Virus record (IMG/VR): IMGVR_UViG_3300027872_000126
Coordinates: 1-20,289 of that record
Direction: 5' to 3' (one strand)
DNA from: a virus
Length of the DNA: 20,289 bases
The translations under genes were made by a program, and so were the position numbers. The notes beneath the pieces are model-generated. The model searched no databases. It saw only the letters and a program-made list of their open reading frames with translations, and was not told the DNA's origin. Positions 2,755 through 12,856 of this stretch are shown here, piece by piece (within the stretch, counting starts at the first letter, position 1; each line of letters opens with the position of its first letter).

Positions 2755-3357
2755 TTAACCCCCTATCTGTTTTGTAACATCCGCAAGCTCCACACAAAAC
2801 GTATCAAGTCGAGAATAGAGCATTCTAATAAACGGCTCATCTCTCGTAACCCGAATAATCAACGGTTTGATGCCTGGGTAATAAGACATGAAATCCCACC
2901 ACTTGCGACCCGTAATAAGTAGAGATCCCTGAATCTGTTGGAAATAGATCGCAGGGATCGCGTTGGCACGAAGGTATTCAACCTGCGTTGTCATCATAGG
3001 GCATTTGATCTCAAGCCCGCCAGGTTTCCCGACAAGTCCATCCGGGCTGCAGAGATATCTTTTCTTCGTGTCCTGATAGCACACACCAACCAACTCAACG
3101 TCCACACCAGTTATGATCTCGTACAAGCTCCGCGCCTCTGGCTCGCGCTCTAAGCCTTTGTCGGTATGCTTAGAGGAAAAGGTCTCTTCTCCGGTCCCAG
3201 AGACACGCTCTCCCGCGAGGCGATTCATGTACTTTGTGTGTTGCTTTGACAGTGCCCCAGTTGATGTTATGATTTCGCTGAAGTGAGAGGAACTGGGAAC
3301 CCCCAACTTCAGGGCGAGCCACTCCGGCGAGTTTTGTTCTACTTTCGATATGATCAT
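2755..3357 (-). CDS. YqaJ-like viral recombinase/exonuclease (PD-(D/E)XK)
   Basis: This is a 200-residue protein, the usual size for the family. The motifs run in order: SPEW at residues 10-13, GVPSSS at 19-24, LEREPEAR at 69-76 (helix acidic residues), SPDG with D106, LEIKCP with E116 and K118 (the catalytic E-x-K), and the QQIQGSLLITG helix around 140-150. Lambda-exonuclease-type enzymes digest one strand of linear duplex DNA and leave single-stranded tails for the annealing protein. Its start overlaps the stop of the Erf gene (ATGA at 3354-3357), so the two would be made together as a resection and annealing pair. All catalytic residues I expect are present. Confidence 0.92.
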   Translation of the reverse strand: MIISKVEQNSPEWLALKLGVPSSSHFSEIITSTGALSKQHTKYMNRLAGERVSGTGEETFSSKHTDKGLEREPEARSLYEIITGVDVELVGVCYQDTKKRYLCSPDGLVGKPGGLEIKCPMMTTQVEYLRANAIPAIYFQQIQGSLLITGRKWWDFMSYYPGIKPLIIRVTRDEPFIRMLYSRLDTFCVELADVTKQIGG

Positions 3358-4082
3358 GCTTTCTTTACCTTCTTCCTCGCCGCAAGAGCTGCGAATGCTT
3401 TGTTGTAATCTGATGCAGGGATCTTGTCCAATGCATCGACACCCATAAACTCAAGAACCTTATCGATCTTTGCATTCGTATCAGTGATCATGTCGAGCAA
3501 TATGTCCTTTTGCTCGGGGCTGATAAGCTTACCGGACGTAGCCTGACCATCATCATCCTCCTCAAACGTCGCAAGGCCGGTTAGAGATAATAAGGTATAC
3601 CTCTGTAGATACGACACCGCTGATGCCATGGCTTGGATCGCATTCTTTGACCCCGTCGTATCCGGACTCGCCGTTAATACTGTCCTCTCAGAATGCCCCA
3701 ACATATGCGTGATAACACATGTGACAGAGATAGTCCCATTGACCTGATTCGTTAACCATGCTGCGGACAACCCATGCTGACTCAGCGCAGTGTTAATCTT
3801 GTCGGCCACGTTATATAAGGAGGCGTGTTTGTACTTCACATCCTTGAATTTAACGGTTCTATCCTTCCCGATTTTCGGCGGGTTCGCTTTGAACTCGGAC
3901 ATGGCTTTGTGATACGCTTTCCTGGCCTCGTTCTTTTCCCATTGGATTTTAATGTCAAGAAGTTTTGACACCTTTTCGAGATCCCCACCTTTGCTAACAG
4001 CCGTCTCAATCAATTCGGATGTTGTTTGCGGTAATTGAGCCTCCACAACCTGCACTTCCTTCGATTCTTTTTTCTTCTTCAT
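3354..4082 (-). CDS. erf: Erf-family single-strand annealing protein
   Basis: This is a 242-residue protein. The start is the ATG at 4080-4082, with AAAGGAG upstream; an in-frame TTG 18 bases earlier lies inside that ribosome binding site and is unlikely. The Erf core spans about residues 45-180: YKHASLYNVADKINTAL (84-100), GLSAAW, a GTISVTCVITHMLGHSE strand pair, QAMASAVSYLQRYTLLSLTGL (150-170) and an acidic EEDDD patch at 174-178. Erf of P22 forms rings on single-stranded DNA and anneals complementary strands. The C-terminal 60 residues are a separate helical, lysine-rich part. It is separated by one base from the upstream membrane-protein gene and is coupled to the exonuclease gene. Confidence 0.92.
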   Translation of the reverse strand: MKKKKESKEVQVVEAQLPQTTSELIETAVSKGGDLEKVSKLLDIKIQWEKNEARKAYHKAMSEFKANPPKIGKDRTVKFKDVKYKHASLYNVADKINTALSQHGLSAAWLTNQVNGTISVTCVITHMLGHSERTVLTASPDTTGSKNAIQAMASAVSYLQRYTLLSLTGLATFEEDDDGQATSGKLISPEQKDILLDMITDTNAKIDKVLEFMGVDALDKIPASDYNKAFAALAARKKVKKA

Positions 4083-4744: not shown

Positions 4745-4911
4745 TTTTTACCTTCTTCCTTTATTACATCGCCATTTATCTCGTAGTATTCTTCCCGGTA
4801 CGAATCATAACAGAAGTCATATTCGCAATCTTCACAGGTACAATGGTGAAACCCCGGGTGATTCGGTACATCAGACTCTACGTTATCGCTATGGCATTTT
4901 GGGCAGTTCAT
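4741..4911 (-). CDS. 56-residue zinc-ribbon-like protein
   Basis: I chose the ATG at 4909-4911 because it overlaps the stop of the preceding Cys-rich gene as ATGA and has AGGAG six bases upstream. In-frame ATGs up to 4935 lie inside the preceding gene. The protein opens MNCPKCHSDN (CPKC at residues 3-6) and has a second cluster with C24, C26, C29 and C34 in HHCTCEDCEYDFC. This is a typical zinc-ribbon layout. The C-terminus is acidic and tyrosine-rich. Function unknown; nucleic-acid or protein binding is the usual role of such folds. Confidence 0.75.
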   Translation of the reverse strand: MNCPKCHSDNVESDVPNHPGFHHCTCEDCEYDFCYDSYREEYYEINGDVIKEEGKK

Positions 4912-5051
4912 ACTCCACTCCTGTGACATTCGCACTCACAGTCCAGATCGCAGTTAATGTCACACTCGCATAACGTCTGCTCTCTGGGACCGGACCTGAA
5001 TCCATCAATCATTACATTTCCGCTTGGTGCTACTCTATCGAATCCGTTCAT
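4908..5051 (-). CDS. 47-residue cysteine-rich mini-protein, first gene of the early operon
   Basis: I translated this by hand. ATG at 5049-5051 follows AGGAGGAGG seven bases upstream, and TGA is at 4908-4910. The first 27 residues are unremarkable (MNGFDRVAPSG and on). The rest holds six cysteines at 28, 30, 34, 38, 40 and 42 in an alternating acid/cysteine ladder, CECDINCDLDCECECH. That density is like metallothioneins or a compact metal cluster. It is coupled on both sides: its ATG overlaps the stop of the leader ORF and its stop overlaps the ATG of the next gene. No family is recognised. The strong ribosome binding site and perfect packing argue that it is expressed. Confidence 0.68.
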   Translation of the reverse strand: MNGFDRVAPSGNVMIDGFRSGPREQTLCECDINCDLDCECECHRSGV

Positions 5052-5191
5052 GTATACCTCCTCCTAAAAAAGAAAACGGTCGGATGAGAGAGACCGTGCG
5101 AAGGCGGCAAGTTAGCCTTTAACAATCCCATCCGACCTAAATAGACACAAAAAAAACTTGCTCTCACTTCTCGCACGGATTTGTTTTGCAT
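5048..5191 (-). CDS. 47-codon leader ORF of the early operon (candidate leader peptide)
   Basis: ATG at 5189-5191 lies about 25-30 bases after the predicted transcription start, with AAGGAG eight bases upstream. The frame reads through the whole attenuator-like hairpin and T-run, and stops (TGA, 5048-5050) overlapping the ATG of the Cys-rich gene. The product (MQNKSVREVRASFF, then ending FFFRRRYT) matches nothing I know and is basic with no domain. Its last residues are forced by the T-run (Phe codons) and by AGGAGGAGG, which is also the next gene's ribosome binding site (three Arg codons). It may matter as a translated leader and not for its product. It could also be a chance ORF in a 5' leader. 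Confidence 0.45.
   Translation of the reverse strand: MQNKSVREVRASFFCVYLGRMGLLKANLPPSHGLSHPTVFFFRRRYT
5064..5178 (-). promoter_or_regulatory. candidate transcription attenuator with competing hairpins
   Basis: On the transcribed (minus) strand a 9-base stem GGTCGGATG (5129-5137) pairs with CATCCGACC (5078-5086), followed at once by GTTTTCTTTTTT (5066-5077), the form of an intrinsic terminator. Its loop holds a 5-bp hairpin AAGGC/GCCTT (5101-5105 with 5115-5119). Further upstream CCGTGCGA (5171-5178) is perfectly complementary to TCGCACGG (5094-5101) inside the loop. That pairing would cross the terminator stem, so the two are mutually exclusive or form a pseudoknot. This is the architecture of an attenuator or riboswitch-like leader. 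The pairing is seen; regulation is inferred. Confidence 0.55.
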
Positions 5192-5219
5192 TGTACACTC
5201 TCCTTTGCTACTGGAAGAA

Positions 5220-5248
5220 AGTATACCTGATGCTTTCAAGAAAGTCAA
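5220..5248 (-). promoter_or_regulatory. consensus sigma70-type promoter for the early operon
   Basis: Reading the minus strand, TTGACT (5243-5248) is followed after exactly 17 bases by TATACT (5220-5225). Both boxes are one base from the sigma70 consensus. The sequence upstream of it (5249-5275) is A/T-rich (AATAAAATATA), like an UP element. It lies in the only sizeable noncoding gap of the window (5192-5286), after the last virion-region gene and before the leader ORF, so it would drive the recombination operon. The start point would be near 5213. No operator-like palindrome is obvious around it. Confidence 0.8.
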
Positions 5249-5286
5249 ATATATTTTATTGTGAACTGTGCGCTGAGTTTACTGTG

Positions 5287-5523
5287 TTACTTTTTCTCGT
5301 CGTGAGACATGGCTTGTATGGCTTTTTTCGTCATGCCAATAGCAAGGGTCATCCATCTCTCGACAAGGACTTTGGCATCCGGATTCTTCAGCACTCCAGG
5401 TGCTTGCGGAGCCAAGGATTTTATTTTTTTTGCTTTTGCCAATGCTGTGATCTTCGTGTAGGAAGAATACCCGCAACCGGAGAGCATCACGCATACCAAA
5501 ATAACGGATAAAATCTTTTTCAT
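5287..5523 (-). CDS. small predicted lipoprotein
   Basis: This is a 78-residue protein starting at the ATG at 5521-5523, which overlaps the stop of the DUF1353 gene as TAATG, with GAGG upstream. A longer frame to 5568 runs inside DUF1353 and has no ribosome binding site. MKKILSVILVCVMLSGC is a textbook lipoprotein signal, with the lipobox LSGC and cysteine at residue 17. The mature part is lysine- and alanine-rich and helical (KITALAKAKKIKSLAP, VERWMTLAIGMTKKAIQAM). A small lipoprotein after virion genes could be a spanin-type lysis component, but no partner is visible here and there is no proline-rich Rz1-like tail. Function unknown. Confidence 0.8.
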   Translation of the reverse strand: MKKILSVILVCVMLSGCGYSSYTKITALAKAKKIKSLAPQAPGVLKNPDAKVLVERWMTLAIGMTKKAIQAMSHDEKK

Positions 5524-5926: not shown

Positions 5927-8900
5927 CTATTTTATGTATTCTCGCTCGTTACGGCCGGAATCGATGTACTCCCGCGCTGTGCCGCTGTCCTGTATATACT
6001 CTCTCCCCGTAGAATCCGGTGCGGCCGGGGGTTCAAACCCATACGTCGTTCTCACTCCAAGACCTGCGGAATTTGCTAAAGAGTCAAACCCTTCCATCTC
6101 GCCGGCAAACCAAGACATCAGATTCTGGATCTGAACAGGTTGCCATCCCCGTATCTGCGAAAGAATAAACGACGGGAACTGCTCATACGAGATAGGACCG
6201 CCGCCATCGCCAGACCAAGTAACAGTTTTGCCTGTTAACTTGCCATACTTAGGATCACCTTTTTTGTATTTTCCTTTGCGCGTAGTTGCGTACACACCCT
6301 TCACATAATCGACTCCGAGGAACTCTGGGAAAGTAGTGAAGCGACGACCGGCCCAATCAACCCCAGTGAGCATTTCATGAAAAAACTTATATATGACACT
6401 CCCTTTGTGATGAGCGGATCTGATTGGGTTGAGCATGAACTTTACAGGATCTGTAAAGTGTCCAAGTATCGAGAAGTATTTTCTCTCTGTGGTTTTACTG
6501 CCAAACATCCTGGCGATCGCAGTGACATCGATGTCAAGAGACTTTTGGAGCGGAGGGAAAAATTCCCGGCCGCGCCGCGTTGTTGCGCGTTTAATGATCC
6601 ATGTATAGTTTCGGATGAACCGTTGCCATGCACCTTCTGTTTGAGAATCGTCTTCGTCTATCGTGGCAAGGAGTAGATTGCCCGCAACAGTTAACCCAAC
6701 GCCCTTTGTAAAGATCCCTGCCCAAAACTTCCTGTAAAATGCGGTCTCTTCTTTGCTGCCGGCATTGATAGCCTTGATCATTGTTCGCACGTTCGATTCC
6801 GTCCAATCTGGAGCCAACGCAAGAAGCCGGAAGATATGCTGCATGGTAGGATTCCGGCCAAGTCTCTGCAGGTGCAAGCCACCGAAATCATCGTTGATAA
6901 GGTTCGCAGCCATCTTAGCAAGATCGTTTATATTCATGTTGGGATGCTTCTTTAAAAGATTCCTATATTCTATCAGGAACGCCTTTGCTTTTAAGCCGGC
7001 CCCGAATTTGCCAAACAGAAAATCAGCCTGTTGCTGTCGCAACGCGAGGACCTTATCCTTAACTGCTTTTGCAACCTTCCACTGATCAAGCTTATGATCG
7101 AGCACTGATTTCTCGCGGATGATCTCCTCGTTCCAATCCTGTTTTATCCCCAACGTCAAACCGTTCCGGACACCCAACATAACAATAGGCTCCTCTTCTC
7201 TAATAGCCTTCAGGCCCTCTTGGTACGCTGTCCGGATCCCCATCTCAGACCACTTCTTGTGCTGTGTCCCCAGATAGTAAGATCTCATAAATGCCAGGTG
7301 ATGGAAGAATGAGCTCTGGAGGATCCACGCCTTCAACACAGCATTGTATTTTGTTGCGAAGTCGATTACCCCAATCCCTTTCAGCCGTGAGATCCCCATG
7401 ATGTTGTTTAAGTTCTGCGCTGCGTACTTTGGCGCGTACAGATCTTTTCGTTCGAGAACCTGCCCGTCGTCGTTAATAAAGAAGTTCCGTCCGCTGATAG
7501 GAGCCTCATCCCCAATCGATCGCGTCTGGCCGGTCCATTGCCATACCTTAAAGTTAGGATGCTCGACTTGGACATAGTCCTCTAATTGTTGCGTTGTTAA
7601 AAGCGGTGCCCCGTCGATAGATTTGAGTTGCCGTAATGTCTTAAGGAATTTCTTATCTTCGATCGTCTTTACCACTTCCTCTTTTACCGCCGCTAAATTG
7701 TTTGTAGCGCCTTCGATCTTTAGCTCAAGATCATTTGCCCATCCTTCAAGAATCGTTTCAAGCTTCCGGTGCTTCGCGTGTCCCGTTGTCGCTTTGAATT
7801 TCCGTGCCCCGCCAACGCCTTCTTTCCCTTTGAGATCCCATTTTCGAGCCACATAGTTATCCAGAACATTCCGGATGACATCCTCTTCTAATGCTTCAAG
7901 GCCCAGGGCCTGGTAGCTTTTGTCTATCTGATCAGCGATCGCTTTGATCTCCTCAGGGAGATTCTGAGAAAGATTGACAATTGCCGCTTGCTCGTTTGTC
8001 AACTTATCGCGGAACAGGGCAAGATGATCTGGATTGCGCTTTAGGTCAAGATATATTTGGATTGCCTTATCTATATCTTTTACGCTTTGGTCATACCTCT
8101 TTTTCCCCGTTGCTTTTAAAATGCTTTCTTGAAAAGTCGCTTTTTCATTCGCGGTCTGTAGGATCCGGATATCCTTCTCCCCGATCCATAGATCCTTCTG
8201 GACGGCATACGCATCGAGTACAGCTTGTCCTTCAGCCGTGGTTACGTCTAACGGCTTCAACTCTTTCTGCACTTTGCCGGCAGACGCTTTACGTTCAAAC
8301 CCGGTCTTGGCTTCTGAGCGATGAGCGATGAAGTAGTCCCCGTCTTTGATCAGGAACTTCTCCTTCGTGAGCGGATAGACATAAACATCCTCACCTTCTG
8401 TGAGTTTGTGCTTATCGCCAAAGACATCTTTTACGGACACAGGGTTTTCTATAATGTAGATCTCCAACATCTCCCCCTGAGCGGGAACGATGTTTTTACG
8501 CTTCAGGTAAGCCTGGAACTTTTTGATCTTTTCTGGATCGTGAACCTGTCCACCGGCCTTGACCCCTCTCAGTGTAAGTGGATCCAACTTGGTCACTCCC
8601 TCAGCGCCAGTTCGTTTTGCAACATTCATTATCGATCGCGCCATCCCGGCGTACTGGTTTGATACCGATGTTAAGTCGTCCTCCGGAACCGTCATATACT
8701 CAAACGCTTTTTTGAGATTCGCTTTTGACATATCAATCTTGGGGATCGATGCATCTTTCCCGTACTCCGCGCCTCTCACGCCGATCAGCTTTTCGTATCC
8801 TGGCATTTCTTTGTATTGGTCAAACTTCGGGATGATCTCCATGCCCATGACCCGGGAAGCGTCCTCAACCGCCTTCAAATACTTCGCGGGATCCTTAGTG

Positions 8901-11900
8901 GCGGCGCCTTGAGCAATGATCTCTTTTGCTTGGATGAGGTTGTCTCCGGTCTCCAGGGAAGCCAGATTCCTCAATGAACCATCGATTACGACTTTCTCGC
9001 TTTGTTGTCTTTTGAAATCCACAAAATTCAAATCCGTTGCCATCTTCAGCCAATTCTTTGGAGTACCGCCACCTAAGTGAGCCGGGATGATATTGTGGAT
9101 CCGGGGATCCTTCATTGCCTTCAGGAGATCTCGTTCGTTGATAGCGACATACATGACACCTGCATTTGGATATCTCTGTGCATATGTGTGCGCGATATCG
9201 ACCGGCAAACCAATGCCTAAAGTAGAGCCCGTCGAAATGTTAAATTTGACACCCGTGTCCCCCAAGATCTCAAGCTGATTTAAGTTTTTCGTATAACTAC
9301 CTAGACCTACGTTAATCTTGGCCAAGTCCCGACCAAGGAGAATCATTGTGGGGATATCTCCAGAGGTGAAGTCGCCGGTCCCGTAGCCTCGGAAGATCCC
9401 GGCTTTTTTCAAATCCTCTTTGTGCTTAAAAATTTGGCCAGGCTTATAAACTTTCATTCCCTGTGTGATCGGTTTTGCTTGGTATCCGATGAGCTGCTTC
9501 TCGAAGGTATAGCACATAAGGCACGGGGTTTCTAATTTTTGTCGGATCCTGGCTTCAAACAATTTCCGTGCAGCCGCTGTTTTTATCTTGGCGTTGATGC
9601 TTTTTATTTCGTCTGTCGTCGGCTCAGGCAATAGCTCGTCGAGCATTTCACGCATTGTGATTACTTGCGTGGTCAGTGCTTTTCCTCTTTTGCAGGTGCT
9701 ATCCGGAACAAGCGCAATCCCGTAATCCGAGTTCTTTACTATTGGACTCCCGGTGACTACAGGGAATCGATCTGGGTTGCTAAAGATCATCGATAGATAA
9801 ACACCCGCCTGAGCTTCTACATCAGACATATTGTTCTGCGCGACTTTTGGGATATCTCCTGCCCCTTTGGATTGCGGAATCTGCTTGCTGATTTTTTGGA
9901 TCTCTCCGGGCAATCCTCCGGCCATGGGCTGATCCCCTACAATAGAACGCTTTATAGTAGGTGTGAGATGTAAGATAGATTGTACTGCTTTTTTCTCCCT
10001 CATCGCAGGGAATAACCATATCGTCAATTTATCTATTAAGTCTTCTGACGCATTGGCTTTTTTAAGCTGTTCAATGCTTATCGTGTCTATTGGTTCCCCT
10101 ATAAACCCTTCAATTTCGTCAACGAAATCTGCTTCATTGAAAGGAAGATTCTTAAGCCCGCCTTCTTCTTGCGTAGGCCCGATTCTTTCCTTTGCAACTT
10201 TGCCCCCCGTCAACTTCTCCATCGCTTGCGGGATCATACGGTCGTAAAGGTTCTTGGCCCATTCACCGCCGATTTTGAGATCTACTCCAGAAATCATTTT
10301 TTCTTTAACCCCATTAGAAAAAGATTTCTCCTCTGCTTTCAACACTCTTTCTGCCGGGGTTTTCCCAATGTATTTTTCGATATCTTTGTCATCTTTAATA
10401 ACCTCATCCAAAATCCTCTGTCCAGTTTTTCCTGAGGCTACTAAACGCCTTGTTCCATCTTTCTGAGTCACTAATAACACGTTATCAATTTGCTTACTCA
10501 AATCATATCGAGCAGCTTGTTGCTCTCCGGTCGTCCATGCAATGGCATCGTAGCCTTCCCTCACAGCCACTTCCAATGCTTTCCTGACAGCTTGCTCGTG
10601 CCAGTTCTTAAGAGCCGGGTGTGATATCTTAGCGGTATCCACAGAGCCACGAACAGCCTTTGCCCAATCACTTTGGATCTCTTCAATGAACAAAACTTTC
10701 TTGTCGATTATAATCTTGGCCTGTTGCTTTCTTATCTTCTTTACTTTGTCCATATCCTCAAGATTAAGAGCCTCTCGCGCTTTGACATCAAGCGCTCTTA
10801 CCCGTTCGACTACATTCTCATTCGGAATCATACGATCGTTCATGCGGATATGGAAGAGGACGTTGGGTTCGTCCCAGTGGGGGGAGATGTAGTTGGCTTG
10901 TGGCACAAGATCATCCTTAAAACCATATTTCTTTTTAATGTTTTTAACCCTATTCATATATTGCTCTGCGTTTAATTGTCCCGATTCGTGTTTAGTTGCT
11001 GCGTCTTGTAAAGCAACGTCCAATGCGCTTGATATTTCTGGCGCCGTCACCACCAACTCCCGGTAATTCTCGCCGCCGGGGGTTTGGTATGCCTCGAATT
11101 TGGTCTCCTGCACAAGAGATGGTAATTCCTGTCTTGCTTGTGATATGGGAATACCCGCATCTTGAGCATGGGCAATAACTTCGCTTTCGCTTACTTCTTT
11201 TACATCCGCACCCTTCCAAACCTCCTGTGTCCCGGGGATCCCCTGCTCCTTCTCGCCCAACTCAGTGCTATGCCCTTCGACGTTGGCAAGCTGCGACTTG
11301 TTGACAACAACGTCTTTCCCGTCATGCAGCCACACCTGGCCATTGGAAAGGTTCATCTCAAAAAGCTCATGACCTTTTTTAAGAGTTACCTTGTTCCCTG
11401 TCAGCTTATCCTGAACCGTGACATCAGACTCGAGACGCATCATGTCGCCGAATCCGGTAGTGGTGATCCCTTTCTTCTTCAGCTTTGCGGTAATCGCCCT
11501 GCGTGACTCTGGAGCGAGGCCACCGGCGCGAGGTTGCTGTGCCTTATTCCAGATGTCGGTGAGTTCGGTTTTGGGTCTATAAATAAAAGCATCATCTACT
11601 CCAATAGCTTCTTGTGCTTTTTTCAACCGAAGATCTCCCGCTCTTACTTTTTGTGATATAATTTTTGCTTCTGTTCCACCTCTTTGTCCAACTATATCTT
11701 TTGCATAAAAACTTGCTTGTTGCCTATCCGTTGTAACGAAATTTCCGGCACTTAATTTCCCACCCTTTTCGCTCGCCCTATAGACAGTAACAATCTCATC
11801 TTCATTAATGCCTTTCACATCAGCGTAACTACTACCTAAATCTGCCTTCACAAACTCCTCTGTCGTCTTAAACTTCTTCGCCTCTTCAATGCCTACCCCC

Positions 11901-12856
11901 GCTCCGGGCTCAATCTCCTCACCTGGGGCAACTGTGGGCTTCTGTGGGGCTCCTGTAATAGCGTTTGTGATTGCGACAGGCAAGCCTTCAAAATCCCCGG
12001 CCTTTATTGCCTCTAACTGCTGTGGAAGCAGGTTAAATCGTTTTCCGAGATCTACCAGTTCTTTCCCTGATGGAATCCGGAGCCCTCCGGCTTGAGCAAG
12101 GATCCCGCCAAACTCAGGCACAACAGGTTCTCCGTATCTCGTTGTCGCGCCACTCGTCCACCCGCGAAGGAGATCCATAACGGCTTTCTTTTTCCCGGCA
12201 GATACATGTTTGAGGATCTCAGCAGGGGATGTTTTCGTGTCCATGATCCGGCTTGCTAATTCTTCAGGAGTCCTAAACGCTTTGTCGATTCGTTGACCTA
12301 TTTGTGAAGACGATAATCGTGCAGAAATATATGGATCGGCAAGCAATGATTTTACAGCGCTAATCCCGACAACGACGGTTCCGGCCAAAGCCAAATGTCT
12401 TGCGATCGGCGGCTCTTGTCCTTCTGTCCTTCCACCCGTCAAATAATGGCCAAGACTTGTTTTTGTCCATTCTTTGTATCCCTCATGCTTTTTAAATTGG
12501 TCATCGCTGAGATACTTCACTCGTTTTTGTGTCGGCCCAGGGACTCCCCCTGCAGGGAACCCGGCCTCCTTCCAATCGAGAAAAGAGCTTTCGTATTCAA
12601 CAGGATTTTTTGTCCACTCTGTGGGAAGATCTGATCCTTCCAATGGAGCAGGTGCCTGTAGACCCACTTTTTGCAAAGCCTCCGTGCGATCGGCGCTTAT
12701 CATTTCATCATCGGACATAATCGAAGGCGCATCGGGCTTTTTCTCTGGGGCAGACATCTCGTCATCGGAAAGGATTGATGGGATCTCAGGGGTGTCCGGA
12801 GCATTCATCTCCTCATCCGATAAAATAGAAGGCGTGTTTAATCGATTCTGTGCCAT
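5927..12856 (-). CDS. giant polyvalent phage protein, candidate ejected internal virion protein (2309 aa)
   Basis: The start ATG has GAGG upstream and overlaps the preceding gene by 19 bases. Regions in order: three copies of a PSILSDEEM peptide (9-52); a hydrophobic helix (154-173); an ADP-ribosyltransferase-like stretch (about 354-430, VYRASE, NFVTTDRQQASFYA); a domain common in phage polyvalent proteins (about 590-800, VLFIEEIQSDW at 721-731 and AWTTGEQQAARYDLSKQ at 773-789); a radical-SAM/GP88-like region (about 1040-1260) with C1055, C1112 and C1115; and a long helical C-terminal part with hydrophobic segments (about 1820-2070, including FRLLALAPDWTES) typical of large phage internal proteins. 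It ends in three REYI repeats. Its place after the glycine-zipper and coiled-coil genes matches the largest ejection protein of T7 and P22-like phages. I see no lysozyme or transglycosylase motif. Confidence 0.82.
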   Translation of the reverse strand: MAQNRLNTPSILSDEEMNAPDTPEIPSILSDDEMSAPEKKPDAPSIMSDDEMISADRTEALQKVGLQAPAPLEGSDLPTEWTKNPVEYESSFLDWKEAGFPAGGVPGPTQKRVKYLSDDQFKKHEGYKEWTKTSLGHYLTGGRTEGQEPPIARHLALAGTVVVGISAVKSLLADPYISARLSSSQIGQRIDKAFRTPEELASRIMDTKTSPAEILKHVSAGKKKAVMDLLRGWTSGATTRYGEPVVPEFGGILAQAGGLRIPSGKELVDLGKRFNLLPQQLEAIKAGDFEGLPVAITNAITGAPQKPTVAPGEEIEPGAGVGIEEAKKFKTTEEFVKADLGSSYADVKGINEDEIVTVYRASEKGGKLSAGNFVTTDRQQASFYAKDIVGQRGGTEAKIISQKVRAGDLRLKKAQEAIGVDDAFIYRPKTELTDIWNKAQQPRAGGLAPESRRAITAKLKKKGITTTGFGDMMRLESDVTVQDKLTGNKVTLKKGHELFEMNLSNGQVWLHDGKDVVVNKSQLANVEGHSTELGEKEQGIPGTQEVWKGADVKEVSESEVIAHAQDAGIPISQARQELPSLVQETKFEAYQTPGGENYRELVVTAPEISSALDVALQDAATKHESGQLNAEQYMNRVKNIKKKYGFKDDLVPQANYISPHWDEPNVLFHIRMNDRMIPNENVVERVRALDVKAREALNLEDMDKVKKIRKQQAKIIIDKKVLFIEEIQSDWAKAVRGSVDTAKISHPALKNWHEQAVRKALEVAVREGYDAIAWTTGEQQAARYDLSKQIDNVLLVTQKDGTRRLVASGKTGQRILDEVIKDDKDIEKYIGKTPAERVLKAEEKSFSNGVKEKMISGVDLKIGGEWAKNLYDRMIPQAMEKLTGGKVAKERIGPTQEEGGLKNLPFNEADFVDEIEGFIGEPIDTISIEQLKKANASEDLIDKLTIWLFPAMREKKAVQSILHLTPTIKRSIVGDQPMAGGLPGEIQKISKQIPQSKGAGDIPKVAQNNMSDVEAQAGVYLSMIFSNPDRFPVVTGSPIVKNSDYGIALVPDSTCKRGKALTTQVITMREMLDELLPEPTTDEIKSINAKIKTAAARKLFEARIRQKLETPCLMCYTFEKQLIGYQAKPITQGMKVYKPGQIFKHKEDLKKAGIFRGYGTGDFTSGDIPTMILLGRDLAKINVGLGSYTKNLNQLEILGDTGVKFNISTGSTLGIGLPVDIAHTYAQRYPNAGVMYVAINERDLLKAMKDPRIHNIIPAHLGGGTPKNWLKMATDLNFVDFKRQQSEKVVIDGSLRNLASLETGDNLIQAKEIIAQGAATKDPAKYLKAVEDASRVMGMEIIPKFDQYKEMPGYEKLIGVRGAEYGKDASIPKIDMSKANLKKAFEYMTVPEDDLTSVSNQYAGMARSIMNVAKRTGAEGVTKLDPLTLRGVKAGGQVHDPEKIKKFQAYLKRKNIVPAQGEMLEIYIIENPVSVKDVFGDKHKLTEGEDVYVYPLTKEKFLIKDGDYFIAHRSEAKTGFERKASAGKVQKELKPLDVTTAEGQAVLDAYAVQKDLWIGEKDIRILQTANEKATFQESILKATGKKRYDQSVKDIDKAIQIYLDLKRNPDHLALFRDKLTNEQAAIVNLSQNLPEEIKAIADQIDKSYQALGLEALEEDVIRNVLDNYVARKWDLKGKEGVGGARKFKATTGHAKHRKLETILEGWANDLELKIEGATNNLAAVKEEVVKTIEDKKFLKTLRQLKSIDGAPLLTTQQLEDYVQVEHPNFKVWQWTGQTRSIGDEAPISGRNFFINDDGQVLERKDLYAPKYAAQNLNNIMGISRLKGIGVIDFATKYNAVLKAWILQSSFFHHLAFMRSYYLGTQHKKWSEMGIRTAYQEGLKAIREEEPIVMLGVRNGLTLGIKQDWNEEIIREKSVLDHKLDQWKVAKAVKDKVLALRQQQADFLFGKFGAGLKAKAFLIEYRNLLKKHPNMNINDLAKMAANLINDDFGGLHLQRLGRNPTMQHIFRLLALAPDWTESNVRTMIKAINAGSKEETAFYRKFWAGIFTKGVGLTVAGNLLLATIDEDDSQTEGAWQRFIRNYTWIIKRATTRRGREFFPPLQKSLDIDVTAIARMFGSKTTERKYFSILGHFTDPVKFMLNPIRSAHHKGSVIYKFFHEMLTGVDWAGRRFTTFPEFLGVDYVKGVYATTRKGKYKKGDPKYGKLTGKTVTWSGDGGGPISYEQFPSFILSQIRGWQPVQIQNLMSWFAGEMEGFDSLANSAGLGVRTTYGFEPPAAPDSTGREYIQDSGTAREYIDSGRNEREYIK
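5930..6016 (-). repeat. three-copy REYI peptide repeat at the C-terminus of the giant protein
   Basis: The last 29 residues contain REYI at 2285-2288, 2295-2298 and 2305-2308, an exact 10-residue spacing, with D/S/G/T/A-rich linkers. The codons differ between copies (CGG GAG TAC ATC, AGA GAG TAT ATA, AGA GAA TAC ATA), so the peptide and not the DNA is conserved. Confidence 0.85.
12689..12835 (-). repeat. three-copy PSILSDEEM peptide repeat at the N-terminus of the giant protein
   Basis: PSILSDEEM, PSILSDDEM and PSIMSDDEM begin at residues 9, 26 and 44, each preceded by a T/I/A residue and followed by an A-P/A-D stretch. The DNA of the copies differs at many synonymous positions, which indicates selection on the peptide. 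The motif would form a short helix N-capped by S-D. Confidence 0.88.

Follow-up and report, generated by a model that had tools for sequence, protein, structure and literature searches.

In phage lambda, the Q-dependent pR'-tR' unit consists of a phage promoter and, within about 150-200 nt, an intrinsic terminator that must be passed. In the P4 immunity and P1/P7 c4-type leaders, early transcripts are terminated prematurely and translation of the leader plays a part. Trp-type attenuators (trpL, hisL, pheL) combine a leader peptide, a terminator and an alternative pairing in the leader. The E. coli pyrL-pyrBI operon, which serves pyrimidine synthesis, has a UTP-sensitive, trailing-ribosome attenuator; its 44-codon pyrL ORF carries a Shine-Dalgarno (SD) sequence, contains an intrinsic terminator and has its stop codon at pyrB, the first structural gene. 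The terminator there is prevented by coupling across pyrL (PMC5021804), and terminators are repressed when a ribosome is close to them (PMC4824070). We describe here a 47-codon leader ORF of the same plan in front of a phage recombination operon (ERF, YqaJ, NinB). With a probability of roughly 0.4, it is a pyrBI-type attenuator of that operon, in which a conditional intrinsic terminator would be relieved by a trailing ribosome on the leader. The part of the literature covered yielded no report of a phage operon attenuated through a leader peptide.

The window, that is the whole stretch of DNA analysed, is a 20,289-base IMG/VR virus record (IMGVR_UViG_3300027872_000126), and its accepted genes all lie on the minus strand. 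Genes that look structural fill a block from 20289 down to 5287, which ends with a DUF1353 gene and a lipoprotein gene and is followed by a gap of 235 nt and then by small genes, ERF, YqaJ and a NinB-like gene. The gap (5052-5286) is the only long intergenic gap in the window, the next longest being 32 nt. The operon opens with gene 1 (4908-5051, 47 aa) and includes genes for an ERF-family single-strand annealing protein (3354-4082; Pfam PF04404, E = 2.4e-17; PHROG 155), a YqaJ-like exonuclease (2755-3357; Pfam PF09588, E = 4.2e-22) and a NinB/Orf-like recombination mediator (1009-1476; PHROG 72, E = 2.9e-12). Positions 1684-2556 encode a charged coiled-coil protein of 290 aa with no Pfam or PHROG match. 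Many phage loci with ERF and YqaJ have it, at 43-60% identity, as the gene immediately following YqaJ, and it is likely an unnamed part of the ERF/YqaJ recombination module. A protein of 2309 aa without a Pfam match is encoded at 5927-12856; it has only remote relatives in phages and IMG/VR, and to judge from its sequence it may be a large protein of several domains that is injected or part of the virion.

The gap holds a sigma-70-like promoter on the minus strand, TTGACT-17 bp-TATACT (5220-5248; TTGACT 5248-5243, TATACT 5225-5220; 10/12 matches), from which transcription would start near 5213. Matches of at least 10/12 are expected 0.015 times in the 235-nt gap and 2.3 times per strand over the whole window. 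Downstream on the same strand, the SD sequence AAGGAG (5200-5205) stands 8 nt before the ATG, at 5191, of the 47-codon ORF MQNKSVREVRASFFCVYLGRMGLLKANLPPSHGLSHPTVFFFRRRYT (5048-5191), which spans the terminator, and the TGA of this ORF (5050-5048) overlaps the ATG of gene 1 (5051-5049). Among random leaders, 0.28% have an ORF with SD and ATG that overlaps gene 1 at its stop, a figure that, like the other chance figures given here for leader elements, was obtained with thresholds chosen after the sequence was seen. These elements were already described in a first-pass annotation made from the letters alone; the promoter, the AAGGAG, the 47-codon ORF with its ATG, its passage through the whole structure and its overlapping stop were all recovered.

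The leader ORF showed no coding signature, and its codon statistics grouped with wrong-frame sequence, not with genes. Gene 1 scored almost as low as the leader ORF, although gene 1 has a homologue. A leader whose job is being translated need not encode a useful peptide. The peptide had no homologue in phage records and no Pfam match, and it holds no run of a single regulatory amino acid apart from codons that arise from the U-tract and the SD sequence. A Pro-Pro pair is present at codons 29-30, where a ribosome would be inside the terminator loop.

The terminator hairpin (5078-5137, minus strand, -25.8 kcal/mol) has a GC-rich 9-bp base, GGTCGGATG (5137-5129) with CATCCGACC (5086-5078), placed directly 5' of the T-tract GTTTTCTTTTTT (5066-5077), as in an intrinsic terminator; the T-tract is the predicted 3' end of the attenuated RNA. 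Above the base, a 7-bp upper stem (5128-5122/5097-5091) was obtained by folding, and the loop holds a 5-bp hairpin of its own, AAGGC/GCCTT (5119-5115/5105-5101). Both the 9-bp stem with its T-rich tract and the small loop hairpin had been noticed before and are present. No other 9-bp inverted repeat in the window combines a loop of up to 60 with a T content of at least 8/12 behind it; 0.07 such repeats are expected per 20 kb, counting both strands. At 42 nt the loop exceeds the usual length for an intrinsic terminator, much of it being closed by the upper stem and the inner hairpin, and a dedicated terminator scan restricted to loops of at most 8 did not list the hairpin 5137-5078.

The position of the hairpin would also suit an ordinary intrinsic terminator acting as an insulator between the late genes upstream (lipoprotein and DUF1353, ending at 5287) and the early operon, the promoter-like and ORF features then being chance and the early genes being served by another or weaker promoter. 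It lies exactly between two gene blocks of the same strand and is the sole T-tailed 9-bp repeat in the window; promoter-like matches this good arise about twice per strand by chance, and the leader ORF lacks a coding signature. Such an insulator is unlikely, with an appreciable chance of being right nevertheless. The terminator stands 13 nt before the gene 1 ATG and after the promoter rather than before it, the 42-nt loop is atypical, and the combination of terminator, SD, ATG and overlapping stop is improbable by chance.

The first-pass annotation had also proposed that the leader could be a small structured RNA. An Rfam search at gathering and permissive thresholds returned chance matches only and no known riboswitch or structured RNA family, and the whole leader folded no more stably than its shuffles (z = -0.84). 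Both results weigh against a small trans-acting phage RNA gene of about 150 nt, running from the promoter to the terminator, whose leaky read-through would feed the operon. Such a gene would account for a structured stretch bracketed by promoter and terminator; it would leave the SD and the ORF unexplained, and the window contains no long antisense match, the best being of 12-14 nt and including U-rich or purine-rich stretches. We consider it most unlikely. The P4, P1 and P7 leaders resemble the locus as phage early operons under termination in a leader with small ORFs; they differ in using a trans-acting antisense RNA, of which no strong copy is present in this window.

The leader was then scanned by masking the nucleotides covered by a ribosome at successive codons. 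The terminator probability was 0.98 with the ribosome up to codon 13, 0.53 at codon 15 and 0 from codon 16, so that in the computation the terminator was abolished only by a ribosome in its stem or loop, from codon 15/16 onward. The same scan of E. coli pyrL-pyrBI, used as a control, gave a matching profile with the terminator dropping at codons 26-27. The two leaders share further features: ORFs of 44 codons in pyrL and 47 here, each led by an SD sequence, enclosing an intrinsic terminator and reaching as far as the first structural gene, and a T-rich tract at the same relative place inside the ORF (TTTTTCTT at +60 in pyrL, U8 at +35 here). They differ in the terminator loop (4 nt in pyrBI, 42 nt here), in the competing 15-bp stem present here, in the leader stop that here overlaps the ATG, and in the genes controlled. 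Since the ribosome scan, the U8 tract and the overlapping stop match pyrL-pyrBI, a pyrBI-type attenuator is the best reading. An SD-led ORF through the terminator, a terminator that folds unless a ribosome is within it and a U-rich tract upstream were all found; pyrimidine biosynthesis genes and homology of the leader to the pyrL sequence were not. The proposal is thus one of pyrBI-like function, and the leader is not taken for a pyrL. The unique T-tailed terminator, the promoter in the sole long gap and the rarity of such an ORF by chance also favour this reading, while the wrong-frame codon statistics, the ordinary fold stability and the long loop count against it.

The outer part of the competing stem pairs the 5' arm CCGTGCGA (5171-5178) with the 3' arm TCGCACGG (5094-5101), and it is the 8-bp complement reported earlier (5178-5171 with 5101-5094), which proved real. 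An inner part that had been missed, GCAAGTT (5155-5161) with AACTTGC (5107-5113), both on the minus strand as well, extends it past an internal loop by 7 pairs (5161-5155 with 5113-5107), giving 15 nested pairs in all. The nested 8+7 stem arises in 0.12% of random leaders of the same composition, and jointly with the T-tailed repeat in 0.02%. Growing transcripts were folded by partition function, a model that covers nested structures only. While the terminator arm was still incomplete, the competing stem passed through a probability of 0.3-0.6; once that arm was transcribed, the terminator took up about 0.96 of the nested-fold ensemble and the competing stem less than 0.01. A ribosome at codons 1-13 blocked the 5' arm of the competing stem, and the terminator stayed at 0.98. 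In the folding model, the competing stem appears neither needed for the terminator nor effective against it. It pairs with the terminator loop and not with the 9-bp base, which gives an H-type pseudoknot topology, and both stems could form together as such a pseudoknot with linkers of 17, 15 and 7 nt. The earlier statement that the two pairings cannot coexist in a simple fold thus holds for nested folds only; strict exclusivity of the stems was dropped because ensemble folding favours the terminator and the topology permits a pseudoknot.

The same data bear on a trp/erm-type attenuator, as proposed in the first-pass annotation, in which the stem 5178-5155/5113-5094 would be the antiterminator and the position of the ribosome would set the outcome. 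Its 15 nested pairs, rare by chance, and their transient formation speak for it; the loss of the stem once the terminator arm is made, its pairing with the loop instead of the base, the possible pseudoknot and the missing run of regulatory codons speak against it, and it is very unlikely. Neither an antiterminator that excludes the terminator on ribosome stalling nor an early regulatory codon run was found, and unlike in trp-type leaders the ORF spans the terminator and the alternative stem loses to it. Of the earlier proposal, the general idea of an attenuator before a phage recombination operon is retained on the anatomy, and the choice between mutually exclusive hairpins is given up on the folding.

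In a pyrBI-type attenuator at this locus, the hairpin 5137-5078 would fold on leaving the polymerase whenever no ribosome is close behind, and transcription begun near 5213 would stop near 5066 with an RNA of about 150 nt. A ribosome at about codon 15 or later at the time the T-tract is made would occupy the 5' arm or the loop of the hairpin; the hairpin could then not form, and transcription would continue into gene 1, ERF and YqaJ. The leader ribosome would finish at the TGA overlapping the start codon of gene 1 and could couple translation as well. The SD sequence of gene 1 (AGGAGGAGG) can pair weakly with the U-tract of the terminator (-4.8 kcal/mol, 5056-5077), and through this pairing gene 1 might be further coupled to translation of the leader ORF. 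If the proposed mechanism is true, the phage would have a direct sensor of host translation, and perhaps of UTP: the distance between ribosome and polymerase would gate one of its early operons just when it commits to recombination and replication.

A run of 8 T/U (5149-5156, minus strand) lies in the leader ORF upstream of the terminator and is possibly a pause or slippage tract for RNA polymerase. As a point where the polymerase waits for the ribosome, it would make the switch depend on the UTP level or on the speed of translation. The fuller proposal, that a phage attenuator of the pyrBI kind ties the recombination operon to host translation and UTP with the U8 tract as its pause or slippage site, is decidedly unlikely. 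Gain or loss of one or two U's in this tract, by transcript or ribosome, would lead to a stop at 5139, at the base of the terminator, or at 5114, in its loop. The tract includes U UUU UUU as an in-frame slippery heptamer; programmed ribosomal frameshifting there was considered and set aside as unsupported, the -1 product stopping after 26 codons.

The order of promoter, leader of about 150 nt, intrinsic terminator and operon is equally that of lambda pR'-tR', and the layout can be likened to this unit and to HK022 put. The terminator could accordingly be a conditional one that an antitermination factor of the phage, either an N/Q-type protein or a put-like RNA, allows the polymerase to pass, with the ORF incidental, and the nested 15-bp upstream pairing could be a structured antitermination signal. 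In contrast to those systems, the leader here looks translated, and family scans of the window genes, in a record that is a fragment, identified no N, Q or put element. An SD-led ORF with an overlapping stop would moreover be a coincidence at the rate given above, and relief by an antitermination factor is rather unlikely.

Relatives were sought at several levels. The leader DNA had no homologue among phages and plasmids, where a single 21-base match was attributed to chance, and the exact 18-mer of the competing stem was not found in IMG/VR. The exact stem pattern occurred at 8 IMG/VR loci, none with a T-tract or shared genes, and these were judged chance. Structural proteins as queries returned no relatives or remote ones. 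Searches of IMG/VR with YqaJ and ERF returned about 160 loci (about 80 each), and the nearest share ERF, YqaJ, the coiled-coil protein and NinB, with about 46-57% identity in the recombination proteins. No leader homologue was detected among these YqaJ and ERF loci, and promoter/terminator layouts upstream of ERF in 14 loci were unlike that of the window. The relatives have ordinary short-loop terminators upstream of ERF, which also favours an insulating terminator. The first-pass annotation had held that related phages keeping the genes and losing both pairings without compensation would speak against the attenuator; the absence of the leader from relatives with the same ERF, YqaJ and NinB genes is on this measure a point against it, although the recombination proteins of these relatives are only about 46-57% identical. 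This absence, and the lack of a leader homologue in phage and plasmid records, IMG/VR patterns and genome contigs, also count against the pyrBI-type reading.

Related viral loci, 2.55 Mb counted by strand, were surveyed for short ORFs with an SD sequence, a terminator inside them and a stop at the next gene. Strict settings returned the window only. Relaxed settings returned the window, the pyrBI locus (in a different reading frame) and nine viral cases, most of them weaker, and no second case of comparable strength appeared in the related loci. As far as these collections show, the leader seems to be lineage-specific or newly acquired.

Gene 1 belongs to a small family with the N-terminus NGFxxxxPSGNxMID and a Cys-rich tail, found in IMG/VR and the genome contigs in the window and in one further locus, L014, only. 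In front of the L014 copy (1758-1946) stands another gene where the window has its leader. That upstream gene region, L014:1029-1745, encodes a protein with tandem QASSGNNA repeats.
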